The position numbers and the translations under genes were made by a program. Positions 11,068 to 25,461 of a stretch of DNA of 64,000 bases are shown here, in pieces. Origin of the DNA: Streptomyces sp. NBC_00250 (lineage in GTDB: Bacteria; Actinomycetota; Actinomycetes; Streptomycetales; Streptomycetaceae). Numbering within the stretch: position 1 is the stretch's first letter; every line of letters starts with the position of its first letter. Where the stretch lies: the NCBI RefSeq assembly GCF_036192275.1, contig NZ_CP108088.1, positions 2,853,501 through 2,917,500 on the forward strand, written 5' to 3'. The notes under the pieces were generated by a model. It had not been told where the DNA came from, did no database searches, and was given only the letters and a program-made list of their open reading frames with translations.

Positions 11068-11130
11068 GGTTCGACGCTACCTGAAGCGCGACAAACAAGA
11101 CATAGAGGGCCGCTCCCGGCATCGGGCGGG

Positions 11131-12747
11131 CTACTCGGAGGGGTCGATCCCGGCCCGCAGCACCCCGTACGTGAAGGCGTCCTCCAGGGCCTGCCAGGAG
11201 GCGGCGATGACGTTCTCGCCGACGCCGACCGTCGACCACTCCCCGTTGCCGTCGCTGGTGGTGATCAGGACGCGGGTCGTGGACTCGGTGCCGTGGCGGC
11301 CTTCCAGGATGCGGACCTTGTAGTCGACCAGCTCGAACTTGGCGAGCTGCGGGTAGATCCGCTCCAGGGCCAGGCGCATCGCACGGTCGAGGGCGTTGAC
11401 GGGGCCGTTGCCCTCGGCGGTGGCGACGATCCGTTCACCCTTGGCCCAGAGCTTCACGGTGGCCTCGTTGGCATGGGTGCCGTCGGGGCGGTCCTCGACG
11501 ATCGCCCGCCAGGACTCCGTACGGAAGTAGCGCCGGGCCCGGCCCTCGACCTCCTCGCGCAGGAGCAGCTCGAAGGAGGCGTCGGCGGCCTCGTACGTGT
11601 AGCCCTGGAGTTCGCGCTCCTTGACCCGCTCGACGACCCGGGCGATCAGGGCGCGGTCGTCGCCCAGGTCGACGCCGAGCTCCTTGCCCTTGAGCTCGAT
11701 GGAGGCGCGGCCCGCCATGTCGGAGACCAGCATCCGCATGGTGTTGCCGACCAGTTCGGGGTCGATGTGCTGGTAGAGGTCGGGGTCGACCTTGATCGCG
11801 GAGGCGTGGAGCCCGGCCTTGTGCGCGAACGCGGAGACGCCGACGTACGGCTGGTGGGTGGAGGGGGTGAGGTTGACGACCTCGGCGATGGCGTGCGAGA
11901 TGCGGGTCATCTCGGCGAGCGCGCCGTCGGGCAGCACCCTCTTGCCGTACTTCAGCTCCAGGGCGGCGACGACCGGGAAGAGGTTGGCGTTGCCGACCCG
12001 CTCGCCGTAGCCGTTGGCGGTGCACTGGACGTGGGTGGCGCCGGCGTCGACGGCGGCCAGGGTGTTGGCGACGGCGCAGCCGGTGTCGTCCTGGGCGTGG
12101 ATTCCGAGGCGGGCGCCGGTGTCGGCGATGACGGTGGCGACGACGGCCTGGATCTGGGCCGGGAGCATGCCGCCGTTGGTGTCACAGAGGATGACGACAT
12201 CGGCGCCGGACTCGTGCGCGGCGCGGACGACGGCCTTGGCGTAGTCGGGGTTGGCCTTGTAGCCGTCGAAGAAGTGCTCGCAGTCGACGAAGACGCGGCG
12301 GCCCTGGGAGACCAGGTGGGAGACGGTGTCCCGGACCATCTCCAGGTTCTCGTCGAGCGTGGTGCGCAGGGCGAGTTCCACGTGCCGGTCGTGGGACTTG
12401 GCGACCAGCGTGACGACGGGCGCGCCGGAGTCCAGGAGGGCCTTGACCTGCGGGTCCTCGGCCGCGTCGCCGCCGGCCCTGCGGGTCGCGCCGAACGCGA
12501 CGAGCTGCGCGTTCTTGAAGACGATCTCCTGCTGCGCGCGGGCGAAGAACTCCGTGTCGCGAGGGTTGGCTCCGGGCCAGCCGCCCTCGATGAAGCCCAC
12601 ACCGAACTCGTCGAGGTGCCGGGCGATGGTCAGCTTGTCCGCGACGGTGAGGTTGATGCCTTCACGCTGCGCCCCGTCGCGCAGCGTCGTGTCGAAGACA
12701 TGGAAGCTGTCGTCGAGGCGCGAGCTCTCGGCGTTCTCCGTGGTCAT
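11131..12747 (-). CDS. cimA: Citramalate synthase
   Basis: 538-aa enzyme of the DRE-TIM/2-isopropylmalate synthase family that condenses pyruvate with acetyl-CoA to citramalate, the threonine-independent route to 2-oxobutyrate and isoleucine. Start ATG 12747 (MTTENAESS) has AGGAG upstream; a longer frame to 12795 lacks this. It shows FDTTLRDGAQREG at the metal site, CTANGYGERVGNANL, and a C-terminal allosteric LeuA-dimer domain. One oddity: the family HxH metal motif reads HAQ (His217, Gln219). An attenuator and leader peptide lie directly upstream. A LeuA-type function is the alternative; the protein resembles actinobacterial CimA more. Confidence 0.88.
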   Translation of the reverse strand: MTTENAESSRLDDSFHVFDTTLRDGAQREGINLTVADKLTIARHLDEFGVGFIEGGWPGANPRDTEFFARAQQEIVFKNAQLVAFGATRRAGGDAAEDPQVKALLDSGAPVVTLVAKSHDRHVELALRTTLDENLEMVRDTVSHLVSQGRRVFVDCEHFFDGYKANPDYAKAVVRAAHESGADVVILCDTNGGMLPAQIQAVVATVIADTGARLGIHAQDDTGCAVANTLAAVDAGATHVQCTANGYGERVGNANLFPVVAALELKYGKRVLPDGALAEMTRISHAIAEVVNLTPSTHQPYVGVSAFAHKAGLHASAIKVDPDLYQHIDPELVGNTMRMLVSDMAGRASIELKGKELGVDLGDDRALIARVVERVKERELQGYTYEAADASFELLLREEVEGRARRYFRTESWRAIVEDRPDGTHANEATVKLWAKGERIVATAEGNGPVNALDRAMRLALERIYPQLAKFELVDYKVRILEGRHGTESTTRVLITTSDGNGEWSTVGVGENVIAASWQALEDAFTYGVLRAGIDPSE

Positions 12748-12849
12748 GACTGTGATGGCTCCTGTCGGATGTGGCTCCGGAAGGTCTGGATCCACTTGCC
12801 CCCATTCTCACGCGGCGTCCGCTTCCGGCATGGGTGGGGCCGGAAAACG

Positions 12850-12875
12850 AAAAAACCCCTCGCGGGTGCGAGAGG
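12850..12875 (-). terminator. Attenuator terminator of cimA
   Basis: On the minus-strand transcript CCUCUCGC pairs with GCGAGGGG (12856-12875; one U-G pair) followed by six Ts (12850-12855). It lies about 100 nt before the cimA start and about 55 nt after the leader stop codon. The U-G pair becomes a C-A mismatch on the plus strand, so the hairpin works for cimA's strand only. Confidence 0.75.
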
Positions 12876-12928
12876 TCTGCGCGCGGGTCTGGGGCACGGT
12901 GTCCACTGCCGCGGGGTTGTGCCGCGAA

Positions 12929-12970
12929 TCAGTGGCCACTGCGGACCGGCGCGCTGCTGCCGATAATCAT
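12929..12970 (-). CDS. cimA leader peptide (Ile-containing, 13 aa)
   Basis: Encodes MIIGSSAPVRSGH and then stops, 180 nt upstream of cimA and upstream of a T6-tailed terminator. Two Ile codons (ATT ATC) follow the start directly and a Val codon comes later. CimA feeds isoleucine synthesis, so these would be the control codons. An in-frame GTG at 12985 would lengthen it to 18 aa. No Shine-Dalgarno sequence is seen for either start. Leader-peptide attenuation is well known for branched-chain genes; for cimA it is my inference. Confidence 0.65.
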   Translation of the reverse strand: MIIGSSAPVRSGH

Positions 12971-13028
12971 CGTGGTAGCAAGCACGCCGGAAGTCTGACA
13001 CAGGTGGAAGATCAACGGGACGCCGGTC

Positions 13029-14357
13029 TCACGATACGGGCAGCTGGTCCCGCTTCTGTCCGGGCACGGCGGTGCCGTCCGTCCCGACCCGGCCCAGGTC
13101 GATGTCCCGGGTCTCCCGCATCGTGAGGTAGACGATCAGCGAGACGGCCGCGCAGCCCGCCACGTACCAGTAGAAGCCCGACTCGATCCCGGCGTCCTTG
13201 AACCAGAGGGCCACGTACTCGGCGGTGCCGCCGAAGAGCGCGTTGGCGATGGCGTACGGCAGGGCGACGCCGAGGGCGCGGATGCCGGTGGGGAAGAGCT
13301 CGGCCTTCACGCAGGCGTTGATGGAGGTGTAGCCGGTGATGACGAGGAGGGCGAGGAGGGAGAGCCCGAGGGCCGGCCAGAAGGAGCCCGCGTGCTTGAG
13401 CATGGTCAGGATCGGGACGGTGAGGAGCGTGGAGCCGACCGCGAAGGTGATGAGGAGCGGGCGGCGGCCGATGCGGTCGGAGAGCCGGCCGGCCAGCGGC
13501 TGGAGGCAGGCGAAGACGATGAGGGCGCAGAAGGAGACCAGGGTCGCGGTCTGCTTGGGCAGGCCGGCCGAGTTGGAGAGGTACTTCGTGAGGTACGTGG
13601 TGTACGTGTAGTACGCGACGGTCCCGCCCATGGTGAGCGCGATGACGAGGAAGGCCTCGCGGCGGTGCGCCCACAGGGCCTTGAGGGTCCCCTTCCGGTC
13701 ACTCTCGACCCCGTCGTCGGCGGAGGCCTCGTACACCTCCGTCTCCAGCATGGTGCGACGCAGATAGAAGACGACGGCCGCGCCGAGGGCGCCGATGACG
13801 AACGGGATGCGCCAGCCCCAGCTGTGCAGGGCCTCGGTGGACAGGGTGTGCTGGAGGATCAGCAGCAGGCCGAGGCCGAGGATCTGGCCGGCGGTCATCG
13901 ACACGTACTGGAAGCTGGAGGCGAAGCCGCGGTGCTCCGGGGCCGAGGCCTCGGTGAGGTAGGTGGCGCTGGCGGCGTACTCCCCGCCGACGGAGAGCCC
14001 CTGGAGGAGGCGGGCGATCAGGAGGACGGCGGCGCCGCCGTATCCGGCGACGGAGTACGTGGGCGCGACGGCGATGAGGAGCGCGGAGGCGGACATCAGG
14101 GTGACGGTGAGGGTGAGGGCGGCCTTGCGGCCCTTGCGGTCACCGACCCGGCCGAGCAGCCAGCCGCCGACGGGCCGCATGAAGAAGCCGACGGCGAAGA
14201 TGCCGGCGGTGTTCATGAGTTTGGCGGTGTCGTTGCCCTCGGGGAAGAACGCCCCCGCGAAGTAGGTGGCGAAGCTCGCGTACACGAACCAGTCGAACCA
14301 CTCGACCATGTTGCCCGCGGAGCCGACCCAGATCTTCTTCCAGTGCTCTCGTCCCAT
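13029..14357 (-). CDS. MFS metabolite:H+ symporter (MHS family)
   Basis: 442-aa, 12-TM permease of the MHS branch (KgtP, ShiA, ProP type), which imports organic acids or zwitterions with protons. Diagnostic pieces are GNMVEWFDWFVYASFATYFAG at the N-terminus, FFMRPVGGWLLGRVGDRKGRK (loop 2-3 motif), GEYAASATYLTEASAPEHRG and LAGRLSDRIGRRPLL. The upstream neighbour is a TetR gene (75 bp away) and then an agmatine deiminase operon on the same strand, which may indicate a nitrogen-containing or carboxylate substrate. The specific substrate is unknown. cimA's leader region begins right after its stop. Confidence 0.87.
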   Translation of the reverse strand: MGREHWKKIWVGSAGNMVEWFDWFVYASFATYFAGAFFPEGNDTAKLMNTAGIFAVGFFMRPVGGWLLGRVGDRKGRKAALTLTVTLMSASALLIAVAPTYSVAGYGGAAVLLIARLLQGLSVGGEYAASATYLTEASAPEHRGFASSFQYVSMTAGQILGLGLLLILQHTLSTEALHSWGWRIPFVIGALGAAVVFYLRRTMLETEVYEASADDGVESDRKGTLKALWAHRREAFLVIALTMGGTVAYYTYTTYLTKYLSNSAGLPKQTATLVSFCALIVFACLQPLAGRLSDRIGRRPLLITFAVGSTLLTVPILTMLKHAGSFWPALGLSLLALLVITGYTSINACVKAELFPTGIRALGVALPYAIANALFGGTAEYVALWFKDAGIESGFYWYVAGCAAVSLIVYLTMRETRDIDLGRVGTDGTAVPGQKRDQLPVS

Positions 14358-14432
14358 GGGCAGGAACCGTGCCGGAGCCGCCCTTCGGTCAACAAGGGTG
14401 CAGCGGACAACGATCCTGTGTACTTACGTGCG

Positions 14433-15056
14433 TTACGGTCGCGGCAACAGGTCCTGCTCGATGAACTCCCGTACGTGCGAAAGGACTTGCTCGCGACCGG
14501 TGCCGGGTACGCCGACCGCGACGTGCACGCTGAAGCCGTCCAGGAGGGCCCTCGTACGGGTGGCGAAGCGGTCCGGGTCGACCGGCCGGAACTCGCCGCG
14601 CGAGACCCCCTCGGCGAGGATCGCGACCAGGTCCCGGTGCCAGGCCCCCTCGATGGCGGCCTGGCGGGTACGGGCGTCGGCGTCGGCGTTCTGGGACCGG
14701 TTCCAGACCTCCAGCCACAGGATCCAGTGCGGATCGCGCGGGCCGTCGGGCACGTACACGTCCACGTACCCGTCGAGCCGCTCGCGCGCGGTCCCCGGCC
14801 GGGACAGCAGCGCACTCCGCTCGGCGCCGAGCCGTCCCTCGCTCCACTCCAGGGTCTGGAGCAGCAGCTCGTCCTTGGTGCGGAAGTAGTAGAGCAGGTG
14901 CCCACTGCTCATCCCGACCTGACGCCCGAGACCGGCCATGGTCAGCCCGTCGAGCCCCCGCTCGGCGATGGTGTCCATGGCGGCGGCGAGCAGCTCCTCA
15001 CGGGGAGGGGCGGCGTTGTTGCGTCGCCGGGGTGCGGCGGGGTCGATACGGGTCAC
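14433..15056 (-). CDS. TetR-family regulator (BetI-like C-terminal domain)
   Basis: 207 aa from GTG 15056. The N-terminal helix-turn-helix spans about residues 20-65 (REELLAAAMDTIAERGLDGLTMAGLGRQVGMSSGHLLYYFRTKDELL). The C-terminal ligand domain resembles the BetI type (PHWILWLEVWNRSQ). The gene is 9 bp after the unknown gene upstream and 75 bp before the MFS permease, so it probably controls this transport and catabolism group. No operator could be assigned with confidence. Confidence 0.85.
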   Translation of the reverse strand: MTRIDPAAPRRRNNAAPPREELLAAAMDTIAERGLDGLTMAGLGRQVGMSSGHLLYYFRTKDELLLQTLEWSEGRLGAERSALLSRPGTARERLDGYVDVYVPDGPRDPHWILWLEVWNRSQNADADARTRQAAIEGAWHRDLVAILAEGVSRGEFRPVDPDRFATRTRALLDGFSVHVAVGVPGTGREQVLSHVREFIEQDLLPRP

Positions 15057-15065
15057 TCGTCTGTT

Positions 15066-15506
15066 CTACCTCACGCTTCCGTCGGCGTTCCGTCCGAAGG
15101 CGGCGCCCAGGACGTCGGGGAGGTCCTCGGCGGGCACGGTCGCCCGCAGCTCCGCGAGGACGGGCCCGAACCGCTCGTCGTCGATCATGCCCAGGTACTC
15201 CTCGCGCAGCCCGCGGATGATCTCGACGAGCTCGGGTCTCAGCCGCATCCATCCCCGGGACGTGCGGATCTCCTCCGCCACGTGTTCCATGAACCAGCAC
15301 ATGACGTCGTACGGGATGCGGTGGTGGCCCGACACGGGGTCGACGCACACGGTCGGCTCCCGCGCCGGATCCTCGTCCGGTACGACCGCCGTGACGAGGG
15401 TCCTCCGGTCGGCGACGTGGTCCAGCTCCAGGTACCAGGCGTCGTCCGGTACGGAATACAGGATCTGGAGCGCGTAGGCGGCGCCTTCGTGGGTGATCAG
15501 CGGCAT
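15066..15506 (-). CDS. Protein of unknown function, 146 aa
   Basis: Not recognised. It begins MPLITHEGAAYALQILYSVP at ATG 15506. It is acidic, soluble, without signal or membrane segments, and rich in aromatic residues in the first 80 residues (DDAWYLELDH, YDVMCWFMEH). It sits between agmatine deiminase (43 bp) and the TetR gene (9 bp) on the same strand, so it is probably co-transcribed with them. The codon pattern is that of its neighbours. Confidence 0.75.
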   Translation of the reverse strand: MPLITHEGAAYALQILYSVPDDAWYLELDHVADRRTLVTAVVPDEDPAREPTVCVDPVSGHHRIPYDVMCWFMEHVAEEIRTSRGWMRLRPELVEIIRGLREEYLGMIDDERFGPVLAELRATVPAEDLPDVLGAAFGRNADGSVR

Positions 15507-15549
15507 GGCCGCAGGCTGTCACGCCGCCCGCGACCGCCGCCAAGGGGTT

Positions 15550-16566
15550 TCAGACCCTCGGCTGCTGCTGTGTGATGCAGTGGATGCCGCCCCCACCCGC
15601 GAAGATCGTGCGCGCGTCGACCAGGACGACCTCGCGTTCCGGGAAGAGGCGGCGGAAGATCTCGGCCGCCAGCTCGTCGTGCGGGTCGTCGAAGGCGCAG
15701 AGGACCACGCCGTCGTTGCACAGGTAGTGGTTGATGTACGAGTAGTCGACCCACTCGCCCTCCTCGTCCTTGAGGACGGTCGGGGCGGGGATCTCGACGA
15801 CCTCAAGGGGGCGGCCCTGGGCGTCGGTCTGGCCGCGCAGGATGTTCACGTACGTCCTGGAGCGCTCGTAGTCCGGGTGGGCCGGGTCCTGCTGGCTGTG
15901 GACGAGGACCGTGCCGGGGCGGGCGAAGGCGGCGACGATGTCGACGTGGCCCTGGGTGCCGTAGAGGCCGTAGTCGCCGGCGAGGCCGTTGGGGAGCCAG
16001 ATCGCCTTCGTCGTGCCGAGCTTGGCGTGGATCTCGTGCTCGACCTGCTCACGGGTCCACTCGGGATTGCGGCCGGCGCCGAGCTGGACGGTGTCGGTCA
16101 GCAGGACCGTGCCCTCGCCGTCGACGTGGATCGCGCCGCCCTCGTTGACGAGCGGGGAGGACACGACCGGGACTCCGGCCGTGTCCGCGACATGGCGGGC
16201 GATCTTGGAGTCGTGCTCCCAGCGGGCCCAGTCCTGGCCGCCCCAGCCGTTGAACACCCAGTCCACGGCCGCCAGTTCCGTGCCGTCGGTGACGAAGGTC
16301 GGGCCGATGTCCCGCATCCAGGCGTCGTCGAGGTCCCGCTCGACCAGGTCGACGTCCTCCCCGAGGAGGGCGCGCACGGACTCGGCGTCGCCGGGGCCGT
16401 GCACCATCGTCACCGGCTCGAAGCGGCGTACGGCGCGGGCCACGGACGCCCAGGCCGTGCGGGCCTCGGCGAGCTCGTCGGCGTTGGTGAAGGTGGGGTT
16501 GGGGCTGGGCCAGGCCATCCAGGTGCGCTCGTGCGGCATCCACTCGGCGGGCATGCGGTAGGTCAT
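15550..16566 (-). CDS. aguA: Agmatine deiminase
   Basis: 338-aa guanidino-group hydrolase of the PAD_porph family: agmatine to N-carbamoylputrescine plus ammonia, in arginine/polyamine degradation. Start ATG 16566 gives MTYRMPAEWMPHERTWMAWPS, the typical N-terminus. Catalytic features are WMRDIGPTFV, GHVDIVAAF (catalytic His) and the terminal GGGGIHCITQQQP with nucleophile Cys330. It follows ureC by 20 bp, so it is in the same transcript. The reaction does not make urea, so the pairing with a urease-like enzyme is not the usual agmatinase-urease logic. Longer open frames upstream are shadows of ureC. Confidence 0.93.
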   Translation of the reverse strand: MTYRMPAEWMPHERTWMAWPSPNPTFTNADELAEARTAWASVARAVRRFEPVTMVHGPGDAESVRALLGEDVDLVERDLDDAWMRDIGPTFVTDGTELAAVDWVFNGWGGQDWARWEHDSKIARHVADTAGVPVVSSPLVNEGGAIHVDGEGTVLLTDTVQLGAGRNPEWTREQVEHEIHAKLGTTKAIWLPNGLAGDYGLYGTQGHVDIVAAFARPGTVLVHSQQDPAHPDYERSRTYVNILRGQTDAQGRPLEVVEIPAPTVLKDEEGEWVDYSYINHYLCNDGVVLCAFDDPHDELAAEIFRRLFPEREVVLVDARTIFAGGGGIHCITQQQPRV

Positions 16567-16586
16567 GGTGACAGGTCCTAGAGGAA

Positions 16587-18269
16587 CTAGAGGAAGTAGA
16601 GGCGGTTGAGCGAGACGGAGTCGGCCGCCTCGGAACGGATCGGCGAGCCGTCGAGCGAGACGAGGCCGGTGTCGCCGTCGACCTGGACGTCTCCGGTACG
16701 GGAGTTGAGCCGCAGGTCGGCCGGACCGATGCCGCGTGTGCCGCGGACGGGGACGCGGCGGCGGCGGGTCGGCATCCTGTCGGCGCCGAGGTCGACGGCC
16801 GCCTGGGCGACGAACGCGACCGAGAGGTCGGCGGCCGTGGCGCCGTGCGCGCCGAACAACGGTCCGAGGACGAGCGGTTCGCAGGTGTCGGTGGCGGCGT
16901 TCGGGTCGCCCACGACCCCCCACGCCGGGAAGCCGGACTTCAGCACCAGCTGCGGCTTGGCGCCGAAGAACTGCGGCTTCCACAGCACGATGTCGGCCAG
17001 CTTGCCGACCTCGATCGAGCCGATCTCGTGGGCGAGGCCGTGGGCGATCGCCGGGTTGATGGTGAGCTTGGCCAGATAGCGGAGCACGCGCGCGTTGTCG
17101 TCGTGCGCGCCGTCGCCCTCCATGGGTCCGAGCTCGGCCTTCATCTTCCCGGCCATGGCGAAGGTCCGGCGTACGGTCTCGCCGGCCCTTCCCATCCCCT
17201 GCGCGTCGGAGGAGGTGATCCCGATCGCGCCGAGGTCGTGCAGGACGTCCTCCGCGCCCATCGTCCCGGCCCGGATCCGGTCGCGCGCCATGGCGGCGTC
17301 ACCGGGGAGGTCGGTCTTCAGGTCGTGGACGGAGACGATCATCCCGTAGTGCTCGGCGACGGCGTCGCGGCCGAAGGGGAGCGTGGGGTTGGTGGAGGAG
17401 CCGATGACGTTCGGCACGCCCGCCATCTTCAGGACGTTGGGTACGTGCCCGCCGCCGCAGCCCTCGATGTGGAAGGCGTGGATCGTACGGCCGTCGAGGA
17501 CGCGCAGGGTGTCCTCGACCGAGAGGCATTCGTTGAGGCCGTCGCTGTGCAGGGCGACCTGGACGTCGTGTTCCTCGGCGACCCGCAGGGCGGTGTCGAG
17601 GGCGCGCGTGTGGGCGCCCATGTCCTCGTGGACCTTGAAGCCGGACGCCCCGCCCTCGGCCAGCGCCTCGACCAGCGGTGCCGGGTCCGAGGACGAACCC
17701 CGGGCCAGGAAGCCGATGTTGACCGGCCAGGCGTCGAAGGCGTTGAACGCGTGACGCAGCGCCCACGGCGAGTTCACGCCGACGCCCCACACCGGGCCGA
17801 ACTCCTGCCCGATGACCGTGGTGACACCGCTCGACAGCGACGCCTCCATGATCCGGGGCGAGAGCAGGTGGACATGGGTGTCGACGGCTCCGGCGGTGGC
17901 GATCATGCCCTCGCCGGAGACGATCGAGGTGCCGGTGCCGACGACGACGTCCACGCCGTCGAGGGTGTCGGGGTTCCCGGCCCGGCCGATCGCGTGGATG
18001 CGGCCCTCGCGGATGCCGATCGACACCTTGCGGATGCCGAGGACGGCGTCGATGACCAGCACGTTGCTGATCACGACGTCGCACGTCTCGCGGACGGCCG
18101 CGGCCTTCAGGTGCAGTCCGTCGCGGGCGGTCTTGCCGAAGCCGGCCAGGAACTCGTCCCCCGGCTGCTGCGAGTCCGACTCGACGCGGACGACGAGCCC
18201 GGAGTCGCCCAGGACGACACGGTCGCCGGCGCGGGGGCCGTGCACGGATGCGTACTCGTACGGGTCCAT
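16587..18269 (-). CDS. ureC: Divergent urease alpha subunit-like amidohydrolase
   Basis: 560 aa, nickel-dependent amidohydrolase fold. By alignment to Klebsiella numbering the bimetal ligands are present: HVH (His132, His134), carbamylated Lys212 (GFKVHED), His241, His267, and Asp355 (TSSDAQGMGR). General-acid His315 and Arg331 are also kept. The mobile-flap Cys319 equivalent is Val314 (IVSVHDL instead of the usual MVCHHLD). The N-terminus (MDPYEYASVHGPRAG) also departs from typical UreC. It starts at ATG 18269, overlapping the ureAB stop as TGATG, so it is translationally coupled. No ureD, E, F or G gene lies in the window. It may be a real but weak urease, matured by proteins from another locus, or an enzyme for another amide. 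A frame running on to 19106 is not real. Confidence 0.85.
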   Translation of the reverse strand: MDPYEYASVHGPRAGDRVVLGDSGLVVRVESDSQQPGDEFLAGFGKTARDGLHLKAAAVRETCDVVISNVLVIDAVLGIRKVSIGIREGRIHAIGRAGNPDTLDGVDVVVGTGTSIVSGEGMIATAGAVDTHVHLLSPRIMEASLSSGVTTVIGQEFGPVWGVGVNSPWALRHAFNAFDAWPVNIGFLARGSSSDPAPLVEALAEGGASGFKVHEDMGAHTRALDTALRVAEEHDVQVALHSDGLNECLSVEDTLRVLDGRTIHAFHIEGCGGGHVPNVLKMAGVPNVIGSSTNPTLPFGRDAVAEHYGMIVSVHDLKTDLPGDAAMARDRIRAGTMGAEDVLHDLGAIGITSSDAQGMGRAGETVRRTFAMAGKMKAELGPMEGDGAHDDNARVLRYLAKLTINPAIAHGLAHEIGSIEVGKLADIVLWKPQFFGAKPQLVLKSGFPAWGVVGDPNAATDTCEPLVLGPLFGAHGATAADLSVAFVAQAAVDLGADRMPTRRRRVPVRGTRGIGPADLRLNSRTGDVQVDGDTGLVSLDGSPIRSEAADSVSLNRLYFL

Positions 18270-19027
18270 CAGTTGCCCTCCTCGTCGGACCGAGCGCCGT
18301 CGGACCGGCCGCCGTCGGACCGGCCGTCGTCGGACCGGCCGTCTCCGCTCTCGACTCCCAGGTAGCCGCAGGCCGCCGCGCGCCGCAGGGCCTCTTCCCT
18401 CGCGCCGGGCGCGTCGAGGGGTCCGTCGACCAGGCCCGCGAAGCCGATGGCGACCCGAGCGCCGCCGATCGGGACCAGGCCCACCTCGGCCTCGCCGCCC
18501 GGGTCGAAACGGAAGGAGGCGCCGGCGGGGATGGCCAGCCGCGTGCCGTAGGCGGCGGCGCGGTCGAAGTCGAGGCGCGGGTTGACCTCGAAGAAGTGGA
18601 AGTGGGAGGTGACGCTCACGGGGACGGTCGCCGTGTTCCGCACGGGGAGCGTGAGCGTCGGCTCGGACTCCGGGTGGCCGGGGCCGGGCAGCAGCGCGCC
18701 CGGCGCCGACCCGCCCAGACCGGCGCCGCCGATCGGGGCGGAGACGACCGCGAGCCGCGAGCCGTCGTCGAAGACGGCCTCGACATGGACCTCGGTGACC
18801 ACGTCGGCGACGCCGGGGAGCACGTCGTCGGGGCCGAGGACCGAGCGGGCGGCCTCGATCGCCTCGGCGAGTCGCTTGCCGTCGCGGGCCGCCTCGCAGA
18901 CCGTGTCCGCGATGAGCGCGGTCGCCTCGGGGACATTGAGCCGCAGGCCCCGGGCCCGGCGGGCGCGGGCGAGCTCGGCGGCGCCGAAGAGCAGCAGCCG
19001 GTCGCGTTCCGTGGGAGTCAGTCGCAC
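18269..19027 (-). CDS. ureAB: Fused urease gamma-beta subunit (UreA-UreB)
   Basis: 252 aa from GTG 19027, with a perfect AGGAGGTG eight bases upstream. Residues 1-100 are UreA-like (MRLTPTERDRLLLFGAAELAR, then DVLPGVADVVTEVHVEAVF). About 105-225 are UreB-like (TVPVSVTSHFHFFEVNPRLDFDR, AYGTRLAIPAGASFRFDPG). The last 25 residues form a tail of GRSD-type pentapeptides coded by 15-bp DNA repeats. Gamma-beta fusions are known in actinobacteria and Helicobacter. It is the first gene of the operon, directly downstream of one copy of an 18-bp regulatory element. Confidence 0.88.
   Translation of the reverse strand: MRLTPTERDRLLLFGAAELARARRARGLRLNVPEATALIADTVCEAARDGKRLAEAIEAARSVLGPDDVLPGVADVVTEVHVEAVFDDGSRLAVVSAPIGGAGLGGSAPGALLPGPGHPESEPTLTLPVRNTATVPVSVTSHFHFFEVNPRLDFDRAAAYGTRLAIPAGASFRFDPGGEAEVGLVPIGGARVAIGFAGLVDGPLDAPGAREEALRRAAACGYLGVESGDGRSDDGRSDGGRSDGARSDEEGN
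18283..18342 (-). repeat. Four 15-bp tandem repeats in the 3' end of ureAB
   Basis: CGTCGGACCG recurs at 18283, 18298, 18313 and 18328 with an exact 15-bp period, coding a GRSD-x pentapeptide array at the UreAB C-terminus. In-frame copy-number change would alter only the tail length. Confidence 0.85.
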
Positions 19028-19045
19028 GTCCGAAACACCTCCTGT

Positions 19046-19063
19046 TTGAGCGACACTCTAAAT
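19046..19063. promoter_or_regulatory. 18-bp regulatory element, copy 1 (ureAB side)
   Basis: TTGAGCGACACTCTAAAT. It differs at one base from copy 2 at 19115 and has the same orientation. It contains an imperfect dyad GAGCG-A-CACTC. It ends three bases from the ureAB Shine-Dalgarno, a position suited to repression. Confidence 0.6.
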
Positions 19064-19114
19064 GTTGAGACGCACTTCTCCAAGCATTGACGCGAGGCAC
19101 TGCCACAGGTCACA

Positions 19115-19132
19115 TTGAGCGCCACTCTAAAT
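19115..19132. promoter_or_regulatory. 18-bp regulatory element, copy 2 (permease side)
   Basis: TTGAGCGCCACTCTAAAT, 69 bp from copy 1. It lies between a possible promoter (TTGACG 19087-19092, 17 nt, TCACAT 19110-19115) and the permease ribosome-binding site. The shared element suggests that one regulator controls both the urease-like operon and the permease. Confidence 0.6.
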
Positions 19133-19160
19133 CTCGCCGCTAGCGCCCCCAGGAGGCCCC

Positions 19161-20582
19161 ATGCCGATCGAACAGCGCGGAGTCGACACCGTCCCCGAGG
19201 CCGAACGCACCAGTGGCCCCCGGGATCTCGTCGCGATCCTGCTCGGGTCCAACCTCTGCCTGGGGGTGATCGTCTTCGGCTGGCTGCCGGTCTCCTTCGG
19301 CCTCGGCTTCTGGGCCTCGGTGACCTCCGTCGTCACCGGCACCCTCGTCGGTGTCGCCGTCACCGCCCCGCTGGCGCTCGTGTCGCTCCGTACCGCCACC
19401 AACCTCTCCACCTCCTCCGGCGCCTTCTTCGGCGTACGGGGCCGGCTGGTCGGCTCGGTGGTCGGACTGCTGCTCTCGCTCGGGTACACCGCGCTGACCC
19501 TCTGGATCGGCGGCGACGTCATGGTCGGCACGCTCGCCCGGCTGACCGGCCTGCCGACCGGCGGCGCCACGCACGCCGTCGTCTACGCGCTGCTCGCCGC
19601 CTGCACGGCGGTCGCCGCGGTGTACGGCTACCGGCTGCTGCTCAAGCTGAGCAAGGCGCTCGCCGTCGGCATGACCGTGCTCCTGGCCCTCGGACTCCTC
19701 GCGTACGCCGGGGACTTCACGACGGCGGCGGTGCCGGACACCCCGTATCTGCTCGGCTCGTTCTGGCCGACCTGGCTGCTCTCGGCGGTCGCCGCGGGCC
19801 TCAGCGGACCGGTCGCCTTCATCACCCTGCTCGGCGACTACACCCGGTACGTCTCGCCGCGGCGGCACAGCGCGAAGACCGTGTGGCGGGCCACCTGTCT
19901 GGGCCTGGTCGTCGGGCTGCTGATCCCCCAGCTCTTCGGTACGTTCACCGCCCTGGCGGCGCGCGGCGGCCTCGACTACGCCGGACCGCTCGTCGCCGCG
20001 TCCCCGGTCTGGTACCTCGTGCCGCTGCTGATCGCGGCCACCGCCGGCTCCGTCGGCAACGCCGGTCTGATGCTCTACTCGATGGGGCTCGACCTCGACG
20101 CGATCCTGCCGAAGGCCACCCGCGCGCGTGCCACCCTCGTGGTCGCGGCGGTCGCGACGGCCTTCGTCTTCCTCGGCCACTTCGCCTCGGACGCGCAGTC
20201 GGCGATGACCTCGTTCGTCCTGCTGCTCACCGCGATCGGCACGCCGTGGGCGGTGATCACCCTGATCGGCCATGTGCGCTGCGGAGGGTCGTACGACCCG
20301 GAGGCGCTCCAGGTCTACAACCGGCGCTCGCGCGGCGGGATCTACTGGTTCTCGGCGGGCTGGCACCCGCGTGCCACCGCCTCCTGGGCGATCGGCGCGG
20401 CGGTCGGTCTCGCCGGGGTGTCGACGCCGCTGTACGAGGGTCCGCTGCTGGCCCTGACCGGCGGCATCGACTGCAGCTTCGTGCTGTCGGGGCTGGTGGG
20501 CGGGGCGCTGTACGCGGTCCTGACGCCGAACAGGGCCTCCGGGACCGTGACGGCCCCGGAAGCCCTGGCGCAGGCGGAGTAG
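19161..20582 (+). CDS. NCS1-family nucleobase/cytosine-type permease
   Basis: 473 aa with about 12 TM segments. NCS1 permeases import cytosine, purines, allantoin or hydantoins with H+ or Na+. Identifying features are an N-terminal GPRDLVAILLGSNLCLGVIVFGWL helix, SGPVAFITLLGDYTRYVSP in the central TM6-7 region, and GYRLLLKLSKALA. AGGAGG precedes ATG 19161. It is divergent from ureAB with a shared 18-bp element, so its substrate may feed the urease-like enzyme. It converges on ilvE across a hairpin. The substrate is not predictable from sequence alone. Confidence 0.88.
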   Translation: MPIEQRGVDTVPEAERTSGPRDLVAILLGSNLCLGVIVFGWLPVSFGLGFWASVTSVVTGTLVGVAVTAPLALVSLRTATNLSTSSGAFFGVRGRLVGSVVGLLLSLGYTALTLWIGGDVMVGTLARLTGLPTGGATHAVVYALLAACTAVAAVYGYRLLLKLSKALAVGMTVLLALGLLAYAGDFTTAAVPDTPYLLGSFWPTWLLSAVAAGLSGPVAFITLLGDYTRYVSPRRHSAKTVWRATCLGLVVGLLIPQLFGTFTALAARGGLDYAGPLVAASPVWYLVPLLIAATAGSVGNAGLMLYSMGLDLDAILPKATRARATLVVAAVATAFVFLGHFASDAQSAMTSFVLLLTAIGTPWAVITLIGHVRCGGSYDPEALQVYNRRSRGGIYWFSAGWHPRATASWAIGAAVGLAGVSTPLYEGPLLALTGGIDCSFVLSGLVGGALYAVLTPNRASGTVTAPEALAQAE

Positions 20583-20586
20583 CGAC

Positions 20587-20611
20587 CGGCCCGGCTCACC
20601 CGGCCGGGCCG
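20587..20611. terminator. Bidirectional terminator between the permease and ilvE
   Basis: CGGCCCGG (20587-20594) pairs with CCGGGCCG (20604-20611) with a 9-nt loop, in the 39 bp between convergent stop codons. Confidence 0.7.
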
Positions 20612-20621
20612 ACCCGTACGA

Positions 20622-21710
20622 CTAGCCCAGCTCGTGCATCCAGCCGTGGACGTCCTCGGCCTTGCCGGTCTGGACGGCGAGCAGCGCGTCGCGCAGCTTC
20701 ATCGTGATCTCGCCGGGCTCGCCGCCCGACTGCTGCCACTCGCCCCGCTCGGACTTGACCGTGCCGACCGGGGTGATCACGGCGGCGGTGCCGCAGGCGA
20801 AGACCTCGGTCAGGGTGCCGTTCGCGCTGTCGGCCTGCCACTGGTCGATGGAGACGCGGCCCTCCTCCGGCTCCAGGCCGAGGTCCGCCGCGAGCTTGAG
20901 CAGCGAGTCACGCGTGATGCCGGCGAGCAGCGAACCGGTGAGCGTGGGGGTGATCAGCTTGTTCCCGTACACGAAGTACAGGTTCATGCCGCCGAGTTCC
21001 TCGACCCACTTGTGCTCCACGGCGTCGAGGTAGGCGACCTGGTCGCAGCCCTTCTGGGCCGCCTCGGCCTGAGCGAGCAGGGAGGCCGCGTAGTTGCCGC
21101 CGGTCTTGGCGTCGCCGACGCCGCCGGGGACGGCGCGGACGCGGTTCTCCGAGAGCCAGATGGAGACGGGCTTCACGCCGCCGGGGAAGTACGGGCCGGC
21201 CGGGGAGGCGATGACGACGAAGAGGTACTCGTTGGCCGGGCGGACGCCCAGGCCGACCTCGGTCGCGATCATGAACGGACGCAGGTAGAGCGAGGCCTCG
21301 CCGCCGTGCTCCGGGACCCACGCCTTGTCGTGCTGGACGAGGACGTCACAGGCCTCGACGAAGGTCTCGACGGGCAGCTCGGGCATGGCGAGCCGGCGGG
21401 CGGAGGCCTGGAAGCGGCGGGCGTTGGCGTCGGGGCGGAAGCTGGCGACCGAGCCGTCGGGGCGGCGGTAGGCCTTCAGGCCCTCGAAGATCTCCTGCGC
21501 GTAGTGCAGGACGTTGGTGGCCGGGTCGAGGGCGAGCGGGCCGTACGGCACGAGCTGGGCGTCGTGCCAGCCCCGGCCCTCGGTCCACCGGATGGTGACC
21601 ATGTGGTCGGTGAAGTGGCGGCCGAATCCCGGGTTGGCCAGGATCGCCTCGCGCTCCGCGGCGGACAGCGGGCTGGAGGAGGGCTTGAGCTCGATCGTGG
21701 GCGTCGTCAT
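20622..21710 (-). CDS. ilvE: Branched-chain amino acid aminotransferase
   Basis: 362-aa PLP enzyme (fold type IV) catalysing the last step of Leu/Ile/Val synthesis and the first step of their breakdown. Start ATG 21710 ([10 protein letters not shown]) has GAAGGA upstream. Features are [32 protein letters not shown], the PLP lysine segment [16 protein letters not shown], and [15 protein letters not shown]. The longer open frame to 21812 lacks a Shine-Dalgarno and covers the promoter. leuB lies 258 bp upstream on the same strand, but a terminator separates them. Confidence 0.94.
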
Positions 21711-21819
21711 GAGTGCGTGTCCTTCACCGGTCGTGTGGGGAGGACCGCGCGCGCACGCCTGCTCTCGGAGACTGCTGTCCCTGACGAGGTGGACGTCCGA
21801 GCATGCCCGCATGCCGCGG

Positions 21820-21846
21820 CCCCACGTTCGATTATCGCTCGTGGGG
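21820..21846 (-). promoter_or_regulatory. Inverted repeat around a -10-like element upstream of ilvE
   Basis: CCCCACG (21820-21826) and CGTGGGG (21840-21846) flank GCGATAATCG, which on the minus strand holds a GATAAT -10-like hexamer. Candidate ilvE promoter with a symmetrical operator; no good -35 was found. Confidence 0.45.
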
Positions 21847-21913
21847 ACCGGTGCGGGAAACGGGTGAACGCGGTCCAGGTTCGATGGGGTGCACCCGGGG
21901 GCCGCGCATGGGA

Positions 21914-21945
21914 CAGCCGCCGGGCGTTGTGCGACCCGGCGGCTG
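21914..21945 (-). terminator. leuB terminator
   Basis: CAGCCGCCGGG (21914-21924) pairs perfectly with CCCGGCGGCTG (21935-21945) with a 10-nt loop, starting 24 nt past the leuB stop. Confidence 0.75.
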
Positions 21946-21968
21946 CTGTCGATGTCAGTAGGCGCGGG

Positions 21969-23009
21969 TCAGCTCGCTACTCGCGCGGCGAGCGCGTCGC
22001 CGATCTCGTCCGTCGTGCGGACGGTGTCGCCGCGCTCGGTGAGGTCTGCGGCGACGGCCTCCTCGACCCGCACGGCCTCGGCCTCGTAGCCGAGGTGGCG
22101 CAGCAGGAGCGCGACGGAGAGGACCGTGGCCGTGGGGTCGGCCTTGGCCTGGCCCGCGATGTCCGGCGCGGAGCCGTGGACCGGCTCGAACATCGACGGG
22201 AACTCGCCGCTCGGGTTGATGTTGCCCGAGGCGGCGACGCCGATGCCGCCGGAGACGGCCGCGGCGAGGTCGGTGATGATGTCGCCGAAGAGGTTGTCGG
22301 TGACGATCACGTCGAAGCGGGCCGGGTCGGTGACGAGGAAGATCGTCGCGGCGTCGACGTGCAGGTAGTCGGTCGTGACCTCGGGGAACTCGGCCGCGAC
22401 CTTGGTGAAGATGTTCGTCCACAGGTGGCCGGCGAAGGTCAGCACGTTGTTCTTGTGGACCAGCGTGAGCTTCTTGCGCGGGCGGGCCTGGGCACGGGCG
22501 AAGGCGTCACGGACGACCCGCTCGACACCGAAGGCGGTGTTGACCGAGACCTCGGTGGCGACCTCGTGCGGGGTGCCCTTGCGGATGGTGCCGCCGTTGC
22601 CCGTGTACGGGCCCTCGGTGCCCTCGCGGACCACGACGAAGTCGATCTCGGGCTGCCCGGCGAGCGGGGTGGCCACGCCGGGGAGCAGCTTCGAGGGACG
22701 CAGGTTCACGTGGTGGTCGAAGGCGAAGCGGAGCTTCAGGAGGAAGCCGCGCTCCAGGACGCCGGAGGGCACCGACGGGTCGCCGATGGCGCCCAGCAGG
22801 ATGGCGTCGTGCTTCTTGAGGGAGTCGAGGTCGGCGTCGGTGAGGGTCTCACCGGTGGCGTGGTAGCGCTTGGCGCCGAAGTCGTACTCCTCGGTCTCCA
22901 GCTTCACGTCCTGGGGAAGGACGGCCGCGAGGATCTTGAGGCCCTGGGCCACGACCTCCTGGCCGATGCCGTCGCCGGGAATGACTGCGAGATTGATGCT
23001 GTGAGACAT
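21969..23009 (-). CDS. leuB: 3-isopropylmalate dehydrogenase
   Basis: 346-aa NAD-dependent beta-decarboxylating dehydrogenase: 3-isopropylmalate to 2-oxoisocaproate in leucine synthesis. It starts [20 protein letters not shown]. Active-site pieces are [19 protein letters not shown] (substrate Arg residues), the catalytic Lys in [34 protein letters not shown] (metal Asp) and [14 protein letters not shown] (NAD site). The length is that of actinobacterial LeuB, shorter than enteric LeuB. It may also handle citramalate-derived 3-methylmalate in the CimA route, a known LeuB activity. Confidence 0.95.
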
Positions 23010-23100
23010 GTCGGCACCCTACTCTTCGTCCCATCGTCTGACACGTCACGTCCATCATGTGGACGAAGCGCCATCCGGGTGAAGACGTGTCGAAGGCGGG

Positions 23101-23232
23101 TCAGTGGCCGGTGGAGCCGCCGTTGTCACGGCGGTCGAGGGCGCGCTGGAGGGCGGCGGCGGCGTTCTGGCGGGCCTCGTCGCTGGGACGGTTGGCGGAG
23201 TGGCGGACGCGGGGGGCGGTCTGAGTTGCCAT
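23101..23232 (-). CDS. Small protein, 43 aa, upstream of leuB
   Basis: Starts MATQTAPRVRHSANRPSDE at ATG 23232 and ends NGGSTGH. CAAGGAG lies 11 nt upstream. The product is basic and helical with an Ala/Gln/Arg-rich centre (EARQNAAAALQRALDRR) and no membrane segment. It lies 91 bp upstream of leuB on the same strand, behind a tandem-dyad region. Function unknown. The ribosome-binding site and wobble G/C bias support it as a real gene. Confidence 0.72.
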   Translation of the reverse strand: MATQTAPRVRHSANRPSDEARQNAAAALQRALDRRDNGGSTGH

Positions 23233-23250
23233 GAGGGATCGACTCCTTGA

Positions 23251-23289
23251 GATCAGTGGTGATCCGAAGTGCGGAGATCAGTGATGATC
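23251..23289. promoter_or_regulatory. Two tandem GATCA-N4-TGATC dyads upstream of the 43-aa gene
   Basis: GATCAGTGGTGATC (23251-23264) and GATCAGTGATGATC (23276-23289) are dyads with a 25-bp period inside a longer direct repeat (GAGATCAGTG..TGATC..GAAG). They start two bases upstream of the Shine-Dalgarno. The rest of 23290-23461 holds no gene; GACAG/CTGTC arms near 23415 could fold in RNA. Confidence 0.55.
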
Positions 23290-23461
23290 GAAGGCGCCGG
23301 CAGGGGCGGGGAGCGCCGCCGCAGGGGTTGCCTGCACAGGGGCGTCGCGCTCTCGACCGCCATTCGCTGATGGAGCGAGACGTTCGGCTTCTACAAAGCT
23401 AGGACAGCTCTCCTCATCTGTCTCCACAATTACTCGGACTTCCTACTATCTGAGACGGCGA

Positions 23462-24355
23462 TCAGCGCGCCCCCGCACCCTCGCCGGCCCGCAGCTCCCT
23501 GATCAGCGCCCGGACGGCGAGGGATCGCCCCAGCTCAGGAGTGGTGACATAGCCGACCGAGCGCGTCGGGCGGGCCGCGCCGAGATCGGTGATCGCCACC
23601 GAGGGCGATGCTCCGACAAGGGACAGTTCCGGCATCACGGCCATCCCGAAGCCACTGCTCACCATCGAGAGCACCGCCCCGTCGTCCTCCGCCTCCACCG
23701 TCGCCGCCGGCAGCCACTCCTGGGCCGCCCACCACTCGCGGGTGTACGAGGTGCAGTTCTCCGCCCAGTCCACCAGCGGCAGCGTGCGCGGCGCCGGATG
23801 GCCCGCGGGGTGGACGAGCGCGTACCCCTCCTCGACGAGGACCCCGCCGATCAGCTCCGGCGGCACGGGCGAGGTGGTCCCGATGGTCGCGATGCCGATG
23901 TCGGCCCGCCCGTCGAGGACTTCACCAGCGGCGCCGCGCCCCACCTCCCGTACGATCCGCACCTCGGGCACGATCTCGGGGTGGCGGGCGGTCAGCCGCG
24001 CCAGGGCCCGGGGCAGCAGGTGCAGGGCGGCGCTGCGGAAGGCCGCGATGCGCAGCGGGCCGGCGATCCCGTCCGTACCGTCCGGTGAGACGCCGCCCCG
24101 GACCTCCGCCCCCATCACCTCCAGGAGCCGCAGCACCCGCCGCGCGTGACCGAGGGCCCGCTCCCCCGCCGCGGTCGGGGTCGCCCCGTTCCGGCCCCGG
24201 TCGAAGAGGACGGCCCCGAGCTTGCGTTCGCTCGCGCGGACGGAGTGGGACACGGCGGACTGGGTCATGCCGAGCGCGACGGCGGCGGCCGAGAAGCCGC
24301 CCTCGCTCCCGACGGCGACGAGGACGCGCAGCTCGCGGGGCGCGAGATCGGTCAT
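23462..24355 (-). CDS. LysR-family transcriptional regulator
   Basis: 297 aa from ATG 24355 (MTDLAPRELRVLVAVGSEGGF). A winged helix-turn-helix occupies residues 1-60 (ALGMTQSAVSHSVRASERKLG) and a periplasmic-binding-protein-like effector domain follows from about 95. It is divergent from an NAD(P)H oxidoreductase gene with a T-N11-A site between them, the classic LysR arrangement, so that gene is its likely target. The start at 24415 proposed by the longer frame would overlap the operator. Confidence 0.9.
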   Translation of the reverse strand: MTDLAPRELRVLVAVGSEGGFSAAAVALGMTQSAVSHSVRASERKLGAVLFDRGRNGATPTAAGERALGHARRVLRLLEVMGAEVRGGVSPDGTDGIAGPLRIAAFRSAALHLLPRALARLTARHPEIVPEVRIVREVGRGAAGEVLDGRADIGIATIGTTSPVPPELIGGVLVEEGYALVHPAGHPAPRTLPLVDWAENCTSYTREWWAAQEWLPAATVEAEDDGAVLSMVSSGFGMAVMPELSLVGASPSVAITDLGAARPTRSVGYVTTPELGRSLAVRALIRELRAGEGAGAR

Positions 24356-24375
24356 GGGGGCTCCCACCTCGGAGT

Positions 24376-24390
24376 ATGAGCGACATTCAT
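24376..24390. promoter_or_regulatory. LysR-type binding site (T-N11-A)
   Basis: ATGAGCGACATTCAT contains ATGA/TCAT arms and fits T-N11-A, in the 101-bp divergent region between the LysR gene and the oxidoreductase gene. Confidence 0.6.
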
Positions 24391-24456
24391 GGATCGGTCC
24401 GTTCCATGGGGCCAACCCTCTGCCCGGCCGCCGGATTCCTTCCTACGGTCTGCCCC

Positions 24457-25461
24457 ATGACGAACGACACCATGATCACCGTCCGCCAGACCGCCCGTCC
24501 GACCGGCTTCCCCACCCCCGACCTGTTCGACTTCGTCGAGTCCCCGGTCCCGGCGCCGGAGCCCGGCACCGCCCTCGTCGAGAACGTCCAGTGGTCGGTC
24601 GACCCGTACCACCGCGAGGCGATGGACTCGGACGAGATCTGGACCCTGAACTCCCCCATGGAGGGGCGCACCCTGGGCCGGGTGCTCGACTCCCGCGATC
24701 CCGCGCTGCGGCCGGGCGACCTCGTCCTGCACCGCAAGGGCTGGCGGACCCACTCCCTGGTGGCACCGGCCGAGGCGCGCAAGGTCCCGGACCTCGGCCC
24801 CGGCGTCCCGCTCGCCGCGCATCTGAGCCTGCTCGGCGGTACGGGCCTGTCGGCCTACGTGGGTCTGACCCGGATCGCGCGGCTCCAGCCGGGCGAGGAC
24901 CTGTTCGTCTCCGCGGCGGCGGGCGGGGTGGGCACGGCGGCGGGCCGGCTCGCCCGGCTGCTGGGCGCGGGACGGCTCGTGGGCAGTGCGGGTTCGGCGC
25001 GCAAGGTGGCGTACCTGACCGAGGAGGTCGGCTTCGACGCCGCCTTCGACTATCACGACGGCCCGGTCCCGGAGCTGCTCGCGAAGGCGGCTCCGGAGGG
25101 ACTCGACGCGGTCCTGGAGGGGGTGGGCGGCGAGCACCTGGAGGCGGCGATCGGCTCGCTGCGGCCGTTCGGGCGGATCGCCTGGGTGGGCGCGGTGGGC
25201 CAGTACCACTCGCTCTCCGCTCCCCCGCCGGCCCCGCGCAACCTCTTCGACGTGGTCGGCAAGAGCATCCGGCTCGAAGGCTTCCTGGTCCGTGACCACA
25301 TGGACGCCCTCGACGAGCTGTACGAGCTGGCCGTGCCGCACCTGCGCGACGGATCGCTGCCCCTGGACGTGACGGTCGTGGAGGGCTTCGAGCGGATCGT
25401 GAGCGCGTTCCTGGGGATGCTGCGCGGCGAGAACCTGGGGAAGATGCTGGTCGGGCGATGA
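24457..25461 (+). CDS. Zinc-independent MDR oxidoreductase (prostaglandin/leukotriene reductase-like)
   Basis: 334 aa starting MTNDTMITVRQTARPTGFPT at ATG 24457. It is a medium-chain dehydrogenase/reductase of the NADP-dependent alkenal or curcumin reductase group. Features are VQWSVDPYHREAMD, LSLLGGTGLSAYVGL, the nucleotide loop AAAGGVGTAAGRLARLLGA, and LEGVGGEHLEAAIGSLRPFGRIAWVGAV. No zinc ligands are seen. Likely reaction: NADPH reduction of an enone or enal. It is divergent from its presumed LysR regulator. A frame opening 850 bp upstream is antisense to that regulator. Confidence 0.88.
   Translation: MTNDTMITVRQTARPTGFPTPDLFDFVESPVPAPEPGTALVENVQWSVDPYHREAMDSDEIWTLNSPMEGRTLGRVLDSRDPALRPGDLVLHRKGWRTHSLVAPAEARKVPDLGPGVPLAAHLSLLGGTGLSAYVGLTRIARLQPGEDLFVSAAAGGVGTAAGRLARLLGAGRLVGSAGSARKVAYLTEEVGFDAAFDYHDGPVPELLAKAAPEGLDAVLEGVGGEHLEAAIGSLRPFGRIAWVGAVGQYHSLSAPPPAPRNLFDVVGKSIRLEGFLVRDHMDALDELYELAVPHLRDGSLPLDVTVVEGFERIVSAFLGMLRGENLGKMLVGR

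Follow-up and report, generated by a model that had tools for sequence, protein, structure and literature searches.

Textbooks describe ureases as enzymes with a single substrate and a single metal, served by an invariable set of chaperones. The iron urease of Helicobacter mustelae also acts on urea and is not known to need accessory proteins, and AguB, an amidohydrolase of ureido compounds, is of the nitrilase type. We analyzed a locus in a 64-kb window (the whole stretch of DNA studied, G000:C1:2853501-2917500) of the 9.27-Mb genome of Streptomyces sp. NBC_00250, in which the genes for a fused urease gamma/beta-like subunit (ureAB2) and a urease-alpha-like amidohydrolase (ureC2) are followed by a deiminase gene of the PAD_porph family. 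The encoded UreABC2 shares with the canonical nickel urease UreABC of Klebsiella aerogenes and Sporosarcina pasteurii the same fold, the six metal ligands and the residues H219, H320 and R336, but differs in a pocket loop shortened by four residues, a Cys-His-His (CHH) flap changed to Val-His-Asp (VHD), an A363G replacement, and the absence of UreG from the locus and, in many carriers, from the genome. UreA2B2 of H. mustelae (PDB 3QGA) provides a precedent for a urease fold with a non-nickel metal; UreABC2 differs from it in its changed pocket and its deiminase partner.

A deiminase gene beside a gene for a ureido amidohydrolase is also the arrangement of the AguA-AguB and AguA-AguY systems (PMC12283126), although the second enzyme of the present locus is urease-derived and neither AguB nor AguY. 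According to the available part of that article, AguY is possibly derived from GatA and such gene pairs are sometimes accompanied by polyamine transport genes; the word "urease" is absent from its main text. PMC2492869 describes ure(AB)C-only clusters without accessory genes in two species, S. coelicolor and S. avermitilis, which it treats as urease clusters. These hold the same gene pair, matched by description only, and neither the deiminase link nor the altered pocket is met in the accessible sections of that article. The extracts at hand of PMC3293853 list SCO5525-5526 as urea-utilizing and SCO5527 as a homologue belonging to an arginine decarboxylase route. Both SCO5525-5527 and the clusters of PMC2492869 are likely orthologues of the window genes. 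SCO5526 is named as part of nrdABS in a passage of PMC4991794, probably a misprint. Within the open PubMed Central (PMC) subset, which leaves subscription papers outside, no paper joining the two enzymes was found.

With moderate confidence, we read the window locus as a module in which a deiminase is followed by a urease-derived amidohydrolase that would act on a substituted urea and would require no nickel chaperones. UreC2 is probably not a general urease, as the initial annotation of this DNA had proposed: its substrate pocket is rewritten, and a second ure cluster with ureD and ureG lies elsewhere in the genome. A broader proposal seems to us evenly balanced between right and wrong, namely that UreC2 represents a widespread, undescribed urease-fold family of chaperone-independent, possibly non-nickel hydrolases of N-substituted ureas, which would complete a new route of guanidino degradation and, elsewhere in actinobacteria, would have been recruited to polyamine-type catabolic operons.

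With Met numbered as 1, residues K212 to D355 of UreC2 align without gaps with Yersinia urease and canonical UreC proteins. Over this segment the ungapped +5 register to Klebsiella UreC given in the initial annotation holds; the offset rests on Klebsiella numbers that we take to be correct, of which K217, H134, H219, H320 and C319 also appear in the titles of PDB entries. Further upstream the register fails: His132 and His134 lie at +2, because a four-residue deletion and a compensating +1 occur in between. This deletion had been missed, and it matters more than the change at the flap. The urease pocket loop GGGTGPADGTNATTxTPGPW becomes GQEFGPVWGVGVNS-PW in UreC2, the four lost residues falling within the loop that carries Ala167 in urease. 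In addition, Ala363 of urease is Gly, and the motif HEDWG reads HEDMG. All six ligands of the bimetal centre (H134, H136, K217, H246, H272 and D360) are kept in the window protein.

The same pattern extends through the family. The six ligands are conserved in 95/95 variant rows (those without a CHH flap) and in 75/75 canonical rows of the alignment, both sets including some repeats (L032/L047, L046/L048, L050/L069, L120/L166; L026/L049, L031/L051). H219, H320 and R336 are invariant in the 95 non-CHH rows, and Ala363 is replaced by Gly in 93 of them. Val314 does occupy the position of the flap Cys, as had been described, yet it fails as the mark of a non-urease: position 319 is Val in 66 rows, Ala in 15, Ser in 8, Cys in 4 and Thr in 2, and position 321 is most often Gly (34) or Asp (29). 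Two of the 95 proteins, L044 and L038, have an ordinary loop with ureG adjoining (L187, L191), so a flap Val alone says little; L044, which has Val at the flap and falls inside the canonical branch of the tree, rules it out as a diagnostic change. Judged from the alignments, the family is marked by the four-residue deletion with the rewritten pocket loop, by the replacement of the second flap His and by Gly in place of Ala363. Pocket residues so unlike those of urease could also belong to a degenerate, non-catalytic paralogue with a structural or regulatory role, but this is highly improbable, since ligands and catalytic residues are kept in all 95 rows across phylum-wide divergence and none of the variant matches listed contains an internal stop. 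A further possible pocket variant, apparently served by chaperones, is seen in L049, L051 and L089, where UreC has the loop GGGLGPV---TVGI, a CHH or CHN flap, and an adjoining UreG in all three.

The fold itself is that of a urease. The AlphaFold2 model of UreC2 has a mean predicted local distance difference test (pLDDT) score of 83.7 and superposes on canonical urease with a template modelling (TM) score of 0.95 and a deviation of 2.3-2.5 A; its ten best solved relatives, aligned over 565-569 columns at 2.3-2.6 A, are all ureases with 42-45% identity. Model confidence is low in the rebuilt loop, at residues 160-163 (numbered without Met), and the prediction gave the fold only. By profile, UreC2 falls below the cut-off of the urease alpha equivalog TIGR01792 (641.9 against 680 bits).

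In a 73-row maximum-likelihood tree of UreC, rooted at the midpoint, 30 of 36 variant rows form a single branch with support of 100/100. The remaining six comprise L048 with L055 and L087/L088/L090, two deep branches between the main branch and the canonical proteins, and L044; given the midpoint root, the tree does not indicate the direction of change. The pocket loops of the two deep branches read TAGFEEP; AQGSGGVWDLGVNP or GMGYGHVSDLGVNP. UreG is absent within these five loci, and in L055 a deiminase gene stands in line with the urease genes. When the variant profile was run over a class-wide draw of 394 genomes, full-length variants reached at least 790 bits and all other matches at most 662 bits; one match of 660 bits, at a contig edge, is probably a partial variant. 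UreC2 occurs in 61 of 101 Streptomyces genomes (hand count, at least 79% identity; G041 partial). The variant UreC of actinobacteria is a real and conserved branch of the urease family and probably one with a novel function; its support is stronger than the initial annotation could have known, though on grounds unrelated to the flap Val.

UreD and UreG give one match each in the window genome, both at the canonical cluster at 7.67 Mb, so the window locus is an orphan; the absence of accessory genes nearby and the suspected second, canonical cluster, both raised in the initial annotation, are borne out. The accessory searches covered UreG and, in the window genome and 32 others, UreD (UreE and UreF lay outside them). 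Among the loci retrieved, UreG was found in 0/85 variant and 53/55 canonical loci, the two canonical exceptions being short contigs; locus tallies here and below were made by BLAST with a fixed query set, which distant genes could escape, after repeated variant loci had been removed. Among 392 genomes there are at least six UreC2-only candidates (one match, E-value 0): G094, G500 (an assembly 91% complete), G535, G573, G622 and G772. UreG was then sought genome-wide in 14 UreC2-positive Streptomyces, namely these six, G017 and G088 (chosen because UreD was missing or below cut-off) and six comparison genomes including that of the window. No UreG above the curated cut-off was found in seven of the 14 (G094, G500, G535, G573, G772, G088 and G017), nor in 23 of 30 variant genomes outside Streptomyces (partial match G1115 left out); one of the 23, G1015, has a UreG fragment at a contig edge with 199.7 bits against a cut-off of 204.2. 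A search for UreD in three UreG-less genomes returned none in G094 and G017 and a fragment below cut-off in G088. In G088 (L054) the canonical ureC is split and contains an internal stop, as in a decayed cluster, while UreC2 and its deiminase are intact. The lack of UreG in so many carrier genomes speaks against ordinary nickel loading, and the nickel in the amidohydrolase of the initial annotation is an assumption.

The constant partner of the variant enzyme in Streptomycetaceae is the deiminase. A PAD_porph gene is found no more than 4 kb from the variant UreC in 20/20 Streptomyces and 13/13 other Streptomycetaceae loci, compared with 17/52 variant loci outside that family and 0/55 canonical loci. 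A guanidine- or ureide-use module, one of the possibilities first suggested for the locus, is the best reading. Among selected Streptomyces genomes, PAD_porph is present in 7/7 with UreC2 and in 1/10 without it. The commonest order is UreAB-UreC-deiminase, but deiminase-UreAB-UreC occurs in L055, L056, L057, L067, L068, L174 and L175, a variation that argues for selection over mere descent. The catalytic Cys/His/acidic set of the family is present in the window protein: WxRD, EGG, GHVD and GGGxHC align with segments of 2JER and 1VKP (wrong-frame row L186_8653 ignored). The gene order described initially, with an agmatine deiminase co-directional to the urease genes, is correct, but the name is valid at family level only: TIGR03380 gives the protein 318 bits where its cut-off asks for 381.8. 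Window-kind deiminases show NEGG, [YF]GTxGHVDI or L, and YSYINH in most, with Gly at the place of the acidic residue of agmatine deiminases; after it there is often an Arg (TRGHVD), Gln in the window itself, and as a guess this Arg could suit a carboxylate substrate. From the alignment and an assumed numbering, we take Asp220 of MtAIH to be the residue before TNGH. This acidic residue bonds the amine of agmatine (PMC6447857, in the part available). The second-locus copy in the same genome (L006:3914-4978) has Glu at that position (TETDGHVDG), so agmatine is a likely substrate for locus 2 and an unlikely one for the window. The counterpart of the second step in known pathways was sought with TIGR03381: AguB exceeded the cut-off in 0/11 genomes, with a best score of 263.2 bits against 410.25 (256.8 bits in the window genome).

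The reaction, substrate, metal, transport and regulation that we infer for the module are as follows. The deiminase would convert a guanidino compound, R-NH-C(=NH)NH2, to the ureido compound R-NH-CO-NH2 and NH3, and the UreAB-UreC enzyme would hydrolyze the latter to R-NH2, CO2 and NH3. The shortened loop and the loss of the Cys-His-His flap have altered its pocket. The bimetal centre would be assembled without UreD, UreF and UreG, and for that reason the enzyme may not use nickel. Import of the guanidino or ureido compound would fall to NCS1, APC, MFS or ABC carriers. In the window, both directions of transcription would be controlled by a TetR repressor bound at the paired palindromes. The likeliest case in locus 2 and some relatives would be the conversion of agmatine via N-carbamoylputrescine into putrescine; in the window locus, R is probably not that of agmatine. 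If true, this large, chaperone-free and pocket-rebuilt branch would show how the specificity and metal choice of ureases can change, many database entries named urease subunit alpha would need correction, and a missing Streptomyces step in the use of guanidino or agmatine nitrogen would be supplied. The UreC2 family would also offer natural proteins for asking which metal the urease scaffold takes up unaided.

Several observations weigh against this reading. With NF009686, a broad subfamily model for urease subunit alpha, UreC2 scores 744.5 bits, well over the cut-off of 354. UreG is present elsewhere in the genome in the other 7 of the 14 Streptomyces (in G622 with one internal stop) and in 7 of the 30 carriers outside Streptomyces, so that activation in trans could occur in these, as in the window genome. 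These facts, together with the 42-45% identity to solved ureases, the full ligand set, ureD and ureG in the genome and the urea-utilizing label of SCO5525-5526 (in the extracts of PMC3293853), would fit an ordinary urease, the second of the genome, that acts on urea and is activated in trans by the canonical cluster's accessory proteins. Such an explanation is nevertheless improbable: genomes in which no UreG exceeds the cut-off carry intact copies of the enzyme, none of the 85 variant loci has an adjoining UreG, the urea-pocket loop and flap are rewritten, and the deiminase is constant in the Streptomycetaceae loci examined. The window deiminase, for its part, has Gly instead of an acidic residue at the agmatine-amine anchor. 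The loss of this anchor suits a chain-less substrate, and the divergent carrier belongs to a family for small polar compounds, so that the deiminase might release urea from free guanidine, with UreABC2 as the urease for that urea. We regard this as very unlikely: the pocket is altered where urea is held, UreG is absent from many carriers, and the guanidine riboswitch gave no match in positions 10000-25000 of the window (E-values up to 0.1) and no gathering-level match in eight related loci, by which riboswitch control was rejected. The only RNA match in that stretch of the window, 5_ureB_sRNA within ureC2 (31.9 bits, below the gathering score of 40), is most simply explained as coding similarity.

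The neighborhood evidence is also indirect, as the Streptomyces loci were hand-picked and the Streptomycetaceae loci share descent. Outside Streptomycetaceae, a deiminase is missing from the 4 kb around UreC in 35 of the 52 variant loci; the contigs of L074, L077, L082 and L162, among those without one, begin or end at UreC. L153 lacks a deiminase although its close relatives L147-L152 have one, and in L160, L161 and L164 the deiminase lies on the opposite strand. Moreover, 10 of the 52 loci carry a polyamine-type ABC set with a binding protein (one of them, L084, together with a deiminase), and an Amidohydro_3 gene is present in 16. The family may therefore have several substrates.

Transport genes are less constant than the deiminase. 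The divergent NCS1-family permease reported beside ureAB2 is indeed a Transp_cyt_pur protein, although it scores only 38.8 bits with TIGR00800, far under the cut-off. Of the 33 Streptomycetaceae loci, 13 have NCS1-family genes; the one in L056, only 27% identical to that of the window, is in line with deiminase-UreAB-UreC. Together with the paired operator-like palindromes in the divergent gap, this could point to hydrolysis of a ureide imported by the permease (allantoate, a hydantoin product or biuret), which was the main proposal of the initial annotation, the deiminase being a bystander. We consider such a role rather unlikely, because the permease is missing from the other 20 Streptomycetaceae loci and from all 52 outside loci, while the deiminase is found in 33/33 and 17/52; NCS1 is thereby excluded as an obligate partner. 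In addition, a distant NCS1-family gene at 1.64 Mb of the same genome (L192) adjoins a PAD_porph gene, about 21 kb from the second orphan copy, which is the closest urease; this ties NCS1 to deiminase chemistry too. Among other carriers, SBP_bac_5-like genes are present at five of the 33 Streptomycetaceae loci, four of which have locus-2-like copies, while the fifth is from Kitasatospora and also has an APC permease directly after UreC. The MFS transporter gene is present in 5 of 20 Streptomyces loci. Carriers vary across the Streptomycetaceae loci whereas the deiminase stays.

A putative shared control element, also noted at the outset, is seen as two copies of GAGYGNCRCTC between the divergent genes, in a gap of 133 bp; the pattern has no further copy in the window. 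Of 15 other locus-1 loci, 7 have it no more than 200 bp upstream of ureAB, which makes 8 of 16 when the window is counted, and it occurs nowhere else within those 16 loci. It was found upstream of ureAB in 0/6 locus-2 loci, and its use as a universal feature is ruled out. The ureAB operon and the permease probably share control. TetR matches were obtained in 13 of the 20 Streptomyces loci and, for the other Streptomycetaceae, in 9 of 13, and the TetR protein is a candidate regulator of the module.

The features of the window locus are listed below. The stop codon of ureAB2 and the ATG of ureC2 overlap (TGATG), so the minus-strand genes look like one operon, which appears to run on past the deiminase through the 146-residue, TetR and MFS genes. 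UreAB2 exceeds the cut-off of NF009671 (317.1 against 243 bits). The deiminase likely starts at the ATG at 16566, and the 146-residue protein is present in 3 of 20 Streptomyces loci, the window counted.

Features of the orphan urease-like locus (positions in the window)
Feature	Position	Strand	Basis or remark
MFS transporter, nearest metabolite/H+ symporter models	13029-14357	-	NCBIfam scores below cut-offs
TetR-family regulator, TetR_C_6, BetI-type	14433-15056	-	Pfam/NCBIfam
146-aa protein without Pfam/NCBIfam match	15066-15506	-	between deiminase and TetR genes
PAD_porph deiminase, agmatine-deiminase-like	15550-16584	-	PF04371, 383.9 bits
ureC2, urease-alpha-like amidohydrolase, 560 aa	16587-18269	-	PF00449 (Urease_alpha) and PF01979 (Amidohydro_1), Pfam
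Codons of Val314-His315-Asp316	17322-17330	-	Cys319-His320-His321 in ureases
Codons of remodelled pocket loop, residues 154-167, GQEFGPVWGVGVNS	17769-17810	-	alignments; 4 residues shorter than urease
ureAB2, fused urease gamma/beta-like subunit, 252 aa	18269-19027	-	PF00547 (Urease_gamma) and PF00699 (Urease_beta), Pfam
Operator-like palindrome GAGCGACACTC	19048-19058		pattern GAGYGNCRCTC
Second palindrome copy GAGCGCCACTC	19117-19127		pattern GAGYGNCRCTC
NCS1-family permease (Transp_cyt_pur), divergent from ureAB2	19161-20582	+	PF02133, 294.9 bits

Variant loci outside Streptomycetaceae have other surroundings. The Kribbella catacumbae locus has an ABC set (TOBE_2 ATPase, SBP_bac_8 and permeases), which we take to be of polyamine type, and a deiminase gene, both divergent from UreAB-UreC; beyond UreC a class-III aminotransferase gene begins. 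In actinobacterial metagenome-assembled genomes, an operon comprises diol dehydratase, its reactivase, Amidohydro_3, UreAB, UreC, an AAT-family protein, a DAO oxidase and an ABC carrier of the same type. Loci with this B12-dependent diol dehydratase are L109, L119, L120, L123 and L165, with L109 and L123 cut by contig ends; some of the genomes bear lake or pond isolate names. In L071, L072 and L073, the variant UreAB-UreC has none of the query genes (deiminase, UreG, NCS1 and others) adjoining; the scanned neighbors were one S1-domain protein in L072 and one protein without family match in L071. L004 reaches the cut-off of the urease N-domain only, over 49 positions.

The second orphan urease copy of the window genome also adjoins deiminase genes. 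Five of the seven PAD_porph genes of this genome lie within about 36 kb around it (L006, L192-L194; G000:C1, about 1.640-1.676 Mb), and four of the five have, by eye, a twin-Arg or lipoprotein-like signal at the start. One of the five adjoins an NCS1-family permease and one an APC permease; the cluster possibly represents secreted deiminases with matching uptake.

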